Of a stretch of 64,000 nucleotides of DNA, positions 40,175 through 60,629 are shown piece by piece (within the stretch, counting starts at the first letter, position 1; each line of letters opens with the position of its first letter). Source of the DNA: Caldivirga sp. MU80 (GTDB lineage: Archaea; Thermoproteota; Thermoprotei; Thermoproteales; Thermocladiaceae); NCBI RefSeq assembly GCF_001663375.1, contig NZ_LCTF01000004.1:1-64000 (forward strand). The letters are read 5' to 3'. A program made the position numbers and the translations under genes. The notes beneath the pieces are model-generated. The model worked only from the letters and a program-made list of their open reading frames with translations, was not told the origin of the DNA and searched no databases.

Positions 40175-41372
40175 TTATCTAGCTTTATTTTTGTATAACT
40201 TATAAATAGTAACATCATAACTTAGCTTAATTGCACCGCTCATTACAAGGGGTAAGTAGAGTAATCTAAGCGAGAATATGAAGCCAACTAATACTGGACC
40301 CGGTAAACTACTTATATTTCTAAAGATGTTAGTTACTGCAAATACTTTCACCCTCTCTTCATCATTAAAAATTTGAGAGATGAACGCTTGCCTGGTAGGT
40401 ACATCCATTTGCGAGAAGCTTTGCCTCAAAAATAGGAATACGACCGCCCAGTACAGTGAGTTCATAAATGGTATAAGAATCAGGAATATATTAGATGTTA
40501 TATGTGTGAAAACCATGGTATGCAAATTACCGATCCGTTCAGCTATTAGTGGGGCTATGATTAACGAAATTGCGGTAATGATACTGGATATGCCAAACAC
40601 TATACCTAAACTCGACGCTGATGCATGAAATCTTAGGTAAAACCAAAGCGTCAATAATGACTGCGTAATTAAACTTCCCCCAAATGCATCCAGAGCAAAG
40701 AGCACTGAAAGATTTCTCACATCTTGATGCAGCAAGAGACCTGGCAGATTTTTACTCATCCCATTGTGACCTACCTCAATATTCATTATCTTCCTATAAA
40801 CTAAAATGAGAAGCATCGACATGATTATGTAAAGTATAAATACGAGCTTAGCCATGATAATAGTATCACTCGTAATAAAGTGAGAGAGTAATGGTATAGA
40901 GAAGGAACCTAATGACGAAAAGGAATAACCAAGTAAGTTATATACCCCTAGTACTCTACCTGGATTTCTAGCGAGCTTAGGGATTATCCCAACCTCCACT
41001 GATTGAAATGGGCCAGTTTCCGTCCCGATGACCCCCTTCCCGTCCCAGTGGGACGGGTTTTTCACTGCTGGGGTCTTGGGCGTTACCCCCTCCATGGGGG
41101 TTAATGGCTTCGTCCTCGGGGTGGTGAAAACAGTGGGGTATCGCCCCACCGGCTCATCTGTGAGGGAAGTAAACCCCCTCTCGGGGGCACCACCCCGAGT
41201 ACAAAACACTAACGAAGTCTGGATTAATAAATGTATCGCTAAATCCCCACATAGTGAGGTGACCCCGCCCTAAAGGGCGAGGTTTGCCGTTAACTATCAG
41301 TATGCTAATGAGGCTAAACGTGAAAATCCTCATACTCTTTGCTAAAAGTATAAGATAAAGGGTATTACTCAT
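40175..41372 (-). pseudogene. MFS transporter gene interrupted by a TnpB-derived MITE
   Basis: The 5' piece (41,372 to about 41,289) encodes MSNTLYLILLAKSMRIFTFS and LISILIVNGK, the first membrane helix. The 3' piece (about 41,020 to 40,175) encodes SVEVGIIPKLARNPGRVLG, LLGYSFSSLGSF and about seven further spans including FLFLRQSFSQMDVPTRQAF, as in MFS drug or sugar carriers. The two pieces are in different frames, with a 261-base element between them. Spans 2 to 4 seem to be absent, so material was lost as well. A functional protein is not expected. Confidence 0.75.
41028..41288 (-). mobile_element. MITE derived from the TnpB element
   Basis: This 261-base piece has the left end (TAAAGGGCGAGG at about 41,271-41,282) and the right end hairpin (CCCGTCCCAGTGGGACGGG at about 41,039-41,057, then AGGGGGTCAT) of the TnpB element. 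Translation on the minus strand gives TSLTDEPVGRYPTVFTTP joined to KPLTPMEGVTPKTP, similar to the very start (SSLDEPVGRLPTLFANP) and end (KPITPKEGATPETP) of the tnpB frame at 16,958-18,478. The interior is deleted. Confidence 0.75.
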
Positions 41373-41568: not shown

Positions 41569-41952
41569 TTAGCATGGGTATGGGTCAATTAAGAGCCTAT
41601 GCAACTTAATAACCCCCTTGTTAATCAGTTTCTGCAACTCCTCTGGGTTACTTAGTTGATTGCTGTTTAACTGCGCATTTATGTGTATTAGTATACCCAT
41701 GCTTATCTCATCAACATTTAATGTACTATTGCTGTTAACCTGCACCTCAACACCAAGTATCGCGCTAAGCACCTTCGCGGCATCCTGTCTCTCAACATAA
41801 CTAATTATGTTCTTACCCTGCACCATGCCCTTAGCCTCATCAACACTTATCGGGTTTAGCCTTATTATCCCACCACACGGTAGCATACATGAGCCTAGGT
41901 CACTGAGCAGATACACGGTGCCTTCAGGCATGGTTAGCTCCCGGTAACGCAT
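41569..41952 (-). CDS. AcrIII-1/DUF1874-type ring-nuclease-like protein
   Basis: The 127-residue protein matches the pattern of the DUF1874 family, whose viral members (AcrIII-1) degrade cyclic tetra-adenylate and block type III CRISPR signalling. Matching points are GTVYLLSDLGSCMLP, ISVDEAKGMV, DAAKVLSAILGVEVQVN, a central strand and ELQKLINKGVIKLHRLLID. The catalytic His of the family falls where this protein has Arg (YVERQDAAK), so hydrolysis is doubtful; it may bind cA4 without cutting it, or use another residue. No CRISPR array or cas gene is in the window. The family call is by eye. Confidence 0.6.
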   Translation of the reverse strand: MRYRELTMPEGTVYLLSDLGSCMLPCGGIIRLNPISVDEAKGMVQGKNIISYVERQDAAKVLSAILGVEVQVNSNSTLNVDEISMGILIHINAQLNSNQLSNPEELQKLINKGVIKLHRLLIDPYPC

Positions 41953-42241
41953 TGGTTAAATAACCTATGCACCATCAACTATTACTTTTGTCGAAAATTT
42001 ATTAATTAATGCGTTACAGAATCCATGATGAATCCGTTGTGGTTAACGTACCATAACCTTAGTCCGCTAAGATTTTTATACTAAATTTACCATTAATACG
42101 ACTACACATGTTAAGTAGATTTTTAATCTAAGTAATGTAGCTTTACCCATAGATACAGATATTATATAATATTACGTATATCACATTAATGCTGGGGAAA
42201 TTTTTAAATTTAAGGCTACGTGAGGCCGCTGGACCAACTGT
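41953..42241. promoter_or_regulatory. Intergenic region with the sdh promoter
   Basis: The 289 bases are AT-rich. TTTTTAAATT at 42,201-42,210 is centred about 36 bases before the sdhB ATG, a likely TATA box giving a leader of about 10 bases. No gene is seen. Confidence 0.5.
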
Positions 42242-43006
42242 ATGTCCTCAGTTAAGGCTGGCCTTAAGATTGAGGTTAAGAGGGGGACCTTTACCTTTAG
42301 GGTTAAGCGTTATGACCCAAAAACCGGTGATTACAGGTGGAGCGAGTATAAGGTTGAGGTCACCAATAGGCAGACCGTGCTTGATGCATTACTCAAAATC
42401 AAAAGTACCCAAGATGCCACCTTGGCTGTTAGGTACAGTTGTAGAATGGGTATATGCGGCTCCTGCGCAATGGTCATTAACGGTGTCCCACGTCTGGCCT
42501 GCGAAACAAAGCCGTTTGAACTGGGCACCGATGTGATAACCGTTGAGCCCCTTAGTAACCTTAAGCCGATTAAGGACCTGGTAGTTGATATGGATGAATT
42601 CTTCGAGAAGCATAAGTCGGTTAAGCCGTGGTTGATTAGGAGGGATGAGGGTGAGCAGTTTGAGAAACTGGACTCGTACTATGTTCAGACCGAGGAGCAG
42701 TTGATTAATTACCTTGAATTCGCCTACTGCATAAAGTGTGGCGCCTGCTACTCAGCATGCCCAATGGTCTTCCTAAACAAGAATTACCTGGGCCCACAGG
42801 CATTAGCCGCCGCCTATAGGTGGAGCGCCGATAATAGGGATGAGGGGTATGTCCTTAGGCTTAAGGTTATTGACTCCGATAACGGCGTGTGGTCATGCCA
42901 CTACAGCGGTACCTGTAGCAAAGTGTGCCCGAAGGGGGTTGACCCAGCATTAGCAATTAACCTACTCAAGAAATCGTTATTAACCGGTAAGCCACCGGCA
43001 AGGTGA
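42242..43006 (+). CDS. sdhB: Succinate dehydrogenase or fumarate reductase iron-sulfur subunit
   Basis: The 254-residue protein passes electrons between the flavoprotein and the membrane quinone site. SCRMGICGSCAMVINGVP with a later Cys (RLACE) binds the 2Fe-2S cluster; CIKCGACYSACPM and CHYSGTCSKVCPKGVDP bind the 4Fe-4S and 3Fe-4S clusters. It heads an operon with two cytochrome-like membrane subunits and a small protein. The flavoprotein subunit (sdhA) is not in the window. Confidence 0.92.
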   Translation: MSSVKAGLKIEVKRGTFTFRVKRYDPKTGDYRWSEYKVEVTNRQTVLDALLKIKSTQDATLAVRYSCRMGICGSCAMVINGVPRLACETKPFELGTDVITVEPLSNLKPIKDLVVDMDEFFEKHKSVKPWLIRRDEGEQFEKLDSYYVQTEEQLINYLEFAYCIKCGACYSACPMVFLNKNYLGPQALAAAYRWSADNRDEGYVLRLKVIDSDNGVWSCHYSGTCSKVCPKGVDPALAINLLKKSLLTGKPPAR

Positions 43007-43479
43007 CCAGCATGACTGAGAAACTGGCCACTAAGAGGAACCCACCCAAATGGTCCCTCTGGTTACGTGGACTGGATGAGTGGCTTCTAATATTCCAGAA
43101 GGTCAGTGGGGCCATTTTAGCCATATACCTAATAGGGCACACGTTAGTTATATCAACGGCGTTAGGCTTCGGCCACCCAAGTCAATTAACCTGGGAAAGG
43201 GTAATTGGGCTCATTGAGGGTCCCAAGGTGGTTGGGGTTGCCCACGTCGGTACGATAATAGAATACTTAATAGCCTTACTGGTAGCTATTCATGGGGCTA
43301 ATGGCATTAGGCTAATCCTAATGCAGTACTTCGGTCTTGGCTTACCTAAGCCTGAAAGGCACACGTACCCTATGATACCTTCACCCAGGAAGAGCCCTCA
43401 ATTGGTGTATAAATACCTTGTAATAGCCGTGGTTATAGTCTTCATAATACTTGCCTCGTACGTGGCCTTCGTGGGGTGA
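43003..43479 (+). CDS. sdhC: Succinate dehydrogenase membrane anchor subunit
   Basis: The 158-residue protein has three to four membrane spans. His residues suitable for haem ligation are in AIYLIGHTLVIST and VAIHGANGIRL, typical of the b-type cytochrome anchor. It overlaps sdhB by four bases and sdhD by four bases. The start codon is the ATG within GCATGACTGAG or one slightly upstream. Confidence 0.8.
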   Translation: MTSMTEKLATKRNPPKWSLWLRGLDEWLLIFQKVSGAILAIYLIGHTLVISTALGFGHPSQLTWERVIGLIEGPKVVGVAHVGTIIEYLIALLVAIHGANGIRLILMQYFGLGLPKPERHTYPMIPSPRKSPQLVYKYLVIAVVIVFIILASYVAFVG

Positions 43480-43835
43480 TGGGCATGGTGGCTAAGTCAA
43501 CGCTTATGAAGTGGCACTACATAACGGGGCTAATACTGGTGGTTGTGCTTGGGATACACCTAGCCTTCAGGTGGCCCAGTTACGAGGCATCCATACAGTG
43601 GAGCGGCCCCCATGGGGTCTATGAACAACTGCTTAACATAGGCTACATGGCCGCCATATTCATACTGCTCTACGCCGCCACCTACCATGCAATGAACGGT
43701 CTAAGGACCCTACTCCTGGAGCTCCATCAAGGTAGGTATTGGAACACCGCCGTTGACGTCGTTATTATAGCGCTGGGCATCTTCATAGTCATAGTGGGCA
43801 CGGTTGCCTTAGTGGGGGCCCTGCAGGTAATATGA
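43476..43835 (+). CDS. sdhD: Succinate dehydrogenase membrane anchor subunit
   Basis: The 119-residue protein has three membrane helices and His residues in KWHYITGLILVVVLGIHLAF and ATYHAMNGLRTLL, as in anchor subunits that bind haem b or quinone. It overlaps its neighbours on both sides by four bases, so the operon is translationally coupled. Confidence 0.78.
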   Translation: MMGMVAKSTLMKWHYITGLILVVVLGIHLAFRWPSYEASIQWSGPHGVYEQLLNIGYMAAIFILLYAATYHAMNGLRTLLLELHQGRYWNTAVDVVIIALGIFIVIVGTVALVGALQVI

Positions 43836-60535: not shown

Positions 60536-60629
60536 TGGAGCCCCGGCCGGGATTCGAACCCGGGACCTTCCGCTCACCCGTGGATTACCACTACGAGGCG
60601 GGCGCTCTACCGGGCTGAGCTACCGGGGC
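60536..60629 (-). tRNA. tRNA-Thr(CGU) with an intron
   Basis: On the minus strand the acceptor stem pairs GCCCCGG with CCGGGGC. The D-arm is TAGCTCAGCCCGGTAGAGC and the T-arm is CCCGGGTTCGAATCCCGG. The anticodon loop begins CTCGTA, giving CGT, so the tRNA reads ACG. About 17 bases (GTGGTAATCCACGGGTG) separate the two halves of the anticodon arm after position 37, the standard archaeal intron site. The 3' CCA (TCCA) is encoded. GCATAAAAATG about 25 bases upstream is the likely TATA box. Confidence 0.85.

Follow-up and report, generated by a model that had tools for sequence, protein, structure and literature searches.

What does a relative of the ring nucleases do in an archaeal chromosome, beside the genes of succinate dehydrogenase, when its catalytic histidine is gone? 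DUF1874 proteins, known from viruses and from a small number of type III loci, are enzymes that destroy the second messenger of CRISPR. The window analysed here, a stretch of 64,000 nucleotides from the hyperthermophilic archaeon Caldivirga sp. MU80, carries one that fits neither setting.

The open reading frame picked out by a sequence-only reading of the window, at 41569–41952 on the reverse strand (127 aa counted from the first ATG), is a real gene, with its start merely moved 21 nt inward. Translation probably begins at the Met at 41931, giving a protein of 120 aa (41569–41931, stop included), because the N-termini of the orthologs correspond to this Met and a TATA-like box lies at the right distance from it in four species. 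This box, GGTTAAATAA on the forward strand at 41954–41963 and oriented for the reverse strand, is found approximately 23–32 nt upstream of the 41931 ATG, overlaps the first ATG and is kept in all four Caldivirga genomes carrying the gene; it was placed by inspection and its function is putative. The in-frame extension up to the first ATG (41932–41952, reverse strand) shows no conservation in the orthologs, overlaps the TATA-like box and is probably untranslated, judging from the sequence comparison.

Membership in the DUF1874/AcrIII-1/Crn2 family, proposed in the sequence-only reading, is real, even though it is weak by sequence for the MU80 copy, and the fold match of the predicted model is unambiguous. 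Against Pfam PF08960 (DUF1874 / STIV_B116-like, cut-off 26 bits) the MU80 copy scores 23.9 bits and its orthologs 29–33 bits. The MU80 protein matches phrog_5063 (E 1.1e-8) and, by itself, AFV3-109 (E 0.011); NCBIfam holds no model for it, and a broad alignment of DUF1874 diverged too far to serve a pattern scan. A profile built from the four Caldivirga proteins reaches AFV3-109 at E 1.8e-7 and SIRV1 ORF114 at E 0.004. The same profile also matched the repeat protein 8vd6, in four short stretches only, and this was taken as chance. The AlphaFold2 model, a monomer computed with 12 homologs as input, has a pLDDT of 85.5, the canonical DUF1874 members in that input aiding recovery of their fold. 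Foldseek matched it to 6scf at E 1.3e-7 and to AcrIII-1/Crn2 structures at E 1e-7 to 1e-4, and VIA-align superposed it on SIRV1 ORF114 (2x4i) with Z 12.9 and an rmsd of 2.0 over 104 residues. The predicted structure is clearly AcrIII-1-like, with the best six structure entries at Z 11–13 and the next unrelated fold at Z 2.8.

The replacement of the catalytic histidine by arginine is confirmed as well. At the position of gp29 His47 and AFV3-109 His45, the MU80 protein and all its orthologs carry Arg48, lying in VERQD in MU80 where the family has its IGHxxT segment; in four of four Caldivirga orthologs V/I-E-R-Q-D stands in place of G-H, and E-R-Q-D is invariant. Taking the residue roles from PMC1796864, PMC7293037 and PMC7213978, the changes extend to the surrounding cavity. 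In AFV3-109, His45 contacts Arg64 and bonds Glu86 of the other subunit, Arg64 bonds the carbonyl of Gly44 and Arg83 is a dimer contact; Glu86 and Arg83 are described as totally conserved, as are the glycerol-site residues in viral homologues (PMC1796864). The Caldivirga equivalents of Gly44, His45, Arg64 and Arg83 are Glu47, Arg48, Ser67 and Gln87, of which Ser67 and Gln87 are invariant, and the position of Glu86 is variable in the clade. The residues by which a ring nuclease is recognised, the catalytic His and the cavity residues Arg64, Arg83 and Glu86, are thus absent, the His and Arg64 positions being consistent across the alignments made and those of the lid (Arg83, Glu86) less certain at approximately 20% identity. 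The lid is also less conserved, with 6 of its 16 residues invariant against 75 of 120 overall (p 0.049, marginal as one of four uncorrected tests), and the floor and His loop, at 15 of 19, do not lie significantly above average. All other aligned DUF1874 members, from the phylum sample and from viral contigs, keep the His, with the single exception of L025 (G198:C6:605-829). This protein, a single copy in a distant archaeal family, reads VWDKW at the His site and is without RLPEG; it may be decaying, and its loss of the His is apparently independent of that in Caldivirga.

Three cysteines are invariant in the clade, C15 and C19 in the CMLPC of the beta1-beta2 loop and C120 in the C-terminal PYPC, within a floor loop (GSCMLPCGG) and a chain terminus (DPYPC) that are themselves invariant. 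In AFV3-109, a dimer, the beta1-beta2 loops make up the floor of the cavity, and the strands are ordered 3-1-4-5-2 with strand 5 antiparallel (PMC1796864). C19 immediately precedes strand 2 and C120 immediately follows strand 5; since this topology would bring them close together, a disulfide between the two is plausible, and a metal site at the invariant cysteines is possible instead. Such disulfide bonds are frequent among the proteins of hyperthermophilic Thermoproteota. L014 and L024, two distant members of the family, likewise carry a cysteine close to strand 2 and another close to the C-terminus, a resemblance in sequence that is suggestive only.

Orthologs that are 66–73% identical were found in three of the four other Caldivirga genomes: G002, a complete genome of the genus, G003 and G004. 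The solitary position beside sdh that had been described for MU80 recurs in them, the gene being divergent from sdhB in all four genomes that carry it. In the window, sdhB encodes the iron-sulfur subunit of succinate dehydrogenase (42242–43006, forward strand) and is followed by two Sdh_cyt membrane subunits (43003–43835, forward strand), assigned from the ORF list and family models. No ortholog was found in G005, a metagenome-assembled genome that is 67% complete and also without an sdhB ortholog. The reading frame is open in the four species and under purifying selection, with pN/pS of 0.10–0.28 (Nei-Gojobori, dS being near saturation for the MU80 pairs). In the tree, the four proteins share a branch 1.87 changes per site long, their nearest neighbour being a G018 protein with modest support (91/87); the long branch probably reflects fast evolution followed by constraint. 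The shared locus points to vertical inheritance within the genus. Other genera of the archaeal family have sdhB, and a member of the clade was not found in their genomes that were searched; the general genome-contig collection yielded a single copy, at the same locus as in G003. A profile scan of viral contigs and a search of plasmids gave no relative of the clade and phages gave distant matches only, on which grounds a gene carried by a virus was rejected. Ring nucleases are expected in a viral genome or a type III CRISPR locus; this locus is fixed beside sdhB in four genomes, and the gene is chromosomal, is retained across the genus and is no recent remnant of a virus.

The surroundings of the gene had been read as virus-like AT-rich sequence and a broken MFS gene, of which the second part stands and the first does not. 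The AT-rich stretch of approximately 310 bp that separates the gene from sdhB is intergenic promoter DNA, with promoter-like boxes on both sides; its TATA-like boxes are conserved and no other clear operator was seen. On the other flank lies a dispersed repeat of approximately 260 bp (about 41028–41290), with approximately 43 matches in the MU80 genome and 33 in G005 and only short scraps in G002–G004. It is GC-rich and strongly folding (z -4.2), looks modular (29–111, 119–210 and 222–292 of the query) and MITE-like, and, like the rest of the flanks, has no match in Rfam. The MFS ORF (40175–41209, reverse strand) is 5′ truncated, its transporter part beginning midway through the family model; the repeat supplies most of its first 80 codons, which accounts for the broken gene with no need of a virus. 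Elsewhere in the window, at 60536–60629, ARAGORN reported a tRNA with undetermined anticodon, possibly intron-bearing.

The absence of cas neighbours agrees with our reading by eye, non-exhaustive, of the ORFs of 38–46 kb. Within the genus, only G002 and G005 yielded a Cas10 palm (that of G002 carrying the GGDD motif); RAMPs were found in G002, G003 and G005, and the Csx1 CARF in G002 and G003. No Cas10, RAMP or Csx1 was found in MU80 (94% complete, 86 contigs) or G004 (97%, approximately 70 contigs), drafts in which a type III system may have escaped detection; by these markers, two genomes keep the gene without a detectable type III system. The Csm1_B model matched nothing in the genus and is uninformative, as it misses even the Cas10-bearing G002. 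In G003, which yielded no Cas10 palm, one open frame of 691 aa (G003:C41:14598-16622) holds two RAMP matches. Canonical GH proteins of the DUF1874 family were found on the Cas10 contig of G005 (L021, G005:C14) and, in G012, near a Cas10-like ORF with the GGDD motif (L008, G012:C3). Both are likely archaeal Crn2 from the same archaeal family as Caldivirga, and such ordinary proteins within that family sharpen the contrast with the one beside sdhB. Canonical queries against viral contigs returned few loci, and those read were all GH.

These results bear directly on the suggestion of the sequence-only reading that the protein might be a cA4 sponge, taken here as a dimer that would bind cA4 or another cyclic oligoadenylate without cutting it and so dampen type III signalling. 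One part of that suggestion stands: loss of the His alone would not prevent binding, as SIRV1 gp29 H47A retains tight cA4 binding with a KD of approximately 25 nM (PMC7213978; see also PMC7293037), the fold is predicted to be intact, and G002 has both a GGDD Cas10 and Csx1. Yet the equivalents of Arg64, Arg83, Glu86 and Gly44 are lost as well, the Caldivirga proteins are acidic (pI 5.0–5.7), and the gene is distant from cas genes and conserved in genomes, MU80 among them, without detected Cas10, RAMP and Csx1, so that we regard a sponge as unlikely. Binding of the tetra-adenylate ring itself seems unlikely because the lid is less conserved, if marginally, and the basic residues are gone; Arg48 could, however, take over the anion contact of Arg64 and leave some nucleotide binding. 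An equally low probability is given to a regulator that grips nucleic acid in its cradle, for instance at the divergent sdh promoter. AFV3-109 does bind dsDNA in vitro, and its authors discuss a role as transcription factor (PMC1796864); the position opposite sdhB in four genomes would suit such a role, but the net negative charge, the lost basic cavity residues and an intergenic region with no clear operator beyond the TATA-like boxes argue against it.

That the protein still cuts, using Arg48 or a Cys or acting on another cyclic nucleotide, is very improbable. The ERQD loop is strictly conserved, two of the three invariant cysteines lie in the cavity-floor loop, and other ring nuclease families use other active sites (PMC7371418); against this, neither the general-acid His nor its partner Glu is retained, and a signalling synthase was not found in MU80 by the markers searched. 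Least credible is a viral anti-CRISPR gene in decay, which could account for the His loss and the long branch, but which is contradicted by purifying selection, by a frame open in four species with 75 of 120 residues invariant and by the fixed locus.

We therefore favour a non-catalytic binding role directed at another ligand or partner, cA4 ring binding seeming unlikely. The protein is, with better than even confidence, a chromosomal, genus-specific DUF1874 descendant, no longer catalytic and without most of its cA4 pocket, that has been repurposed as a non-catalytic binding dimer. The cradle dimer of the family would presumably still form; C15 and C19 at the dimer floor and C120, where the last strand ends, would brace it, probably by disulfide; and its ligand or protein partner would be something other than cA4, the protein acting as a sensor or regulator. 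A link to succinate dehydrogenase is possible from the position of the gene. We offer more tentatively, at somewhat less than even confidence, that the genus has captured an anti-CRISPR/ring-nuclease fold, rebuilt its cavity (ERQD, CMLPC/PYPC) and made of it a sensor or regulator with a housekeeping role outside CRISPR, perhaps tied to respiration.

Since the key residues are replaced and the gene is kept even where type III CRISPR was not found, this ring-nuclease relative with a lost active site has probably been given a new job in its genus. A fold that stays under selection after losing its active site suggests recruitment of DUF1874 for other roles, and annotation as anti-CRISPR or ring nuclease from the family name alone can mislead. 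Phage cyclic-nucleotide sponges (e.g. Acb4) and Csx15 are a precedent for non-cleaving binding of signal nucleotides, which is proposed or shown for them (PMC12409355; PMC11722364) and hypothetical for Caldivirga. Csx15 is not a DUF1874 protein, and the phage sponges are not known to be. L025 of G198 is also without the His, but belongs to another archaeal family, keeps the SRR arginine and has no CMLPC/PYPC. The Crn2 proteins (e.g. Marinitoga Csx1-Crn2 and those of G005 and G012) have the same fold and a cellular host, yet they keep GH and sit with cas genes, whereas the Caldivirga protein lies by sdhB without the His. With AFV3-109, STIV B116 and SIRV1 gp29 (AcrIII-1) it has in common the fold (Z 11–13), the length, the order of strands and helices and the LG and N positions; it differs in the replacement of His45/47, Arg64/66, Arg83/85 and Glu86/88 (AFV3-109/gp29 numbering), in its three invariant cysteines and in its place on the host chromosome, at a locus fixed in the genus.
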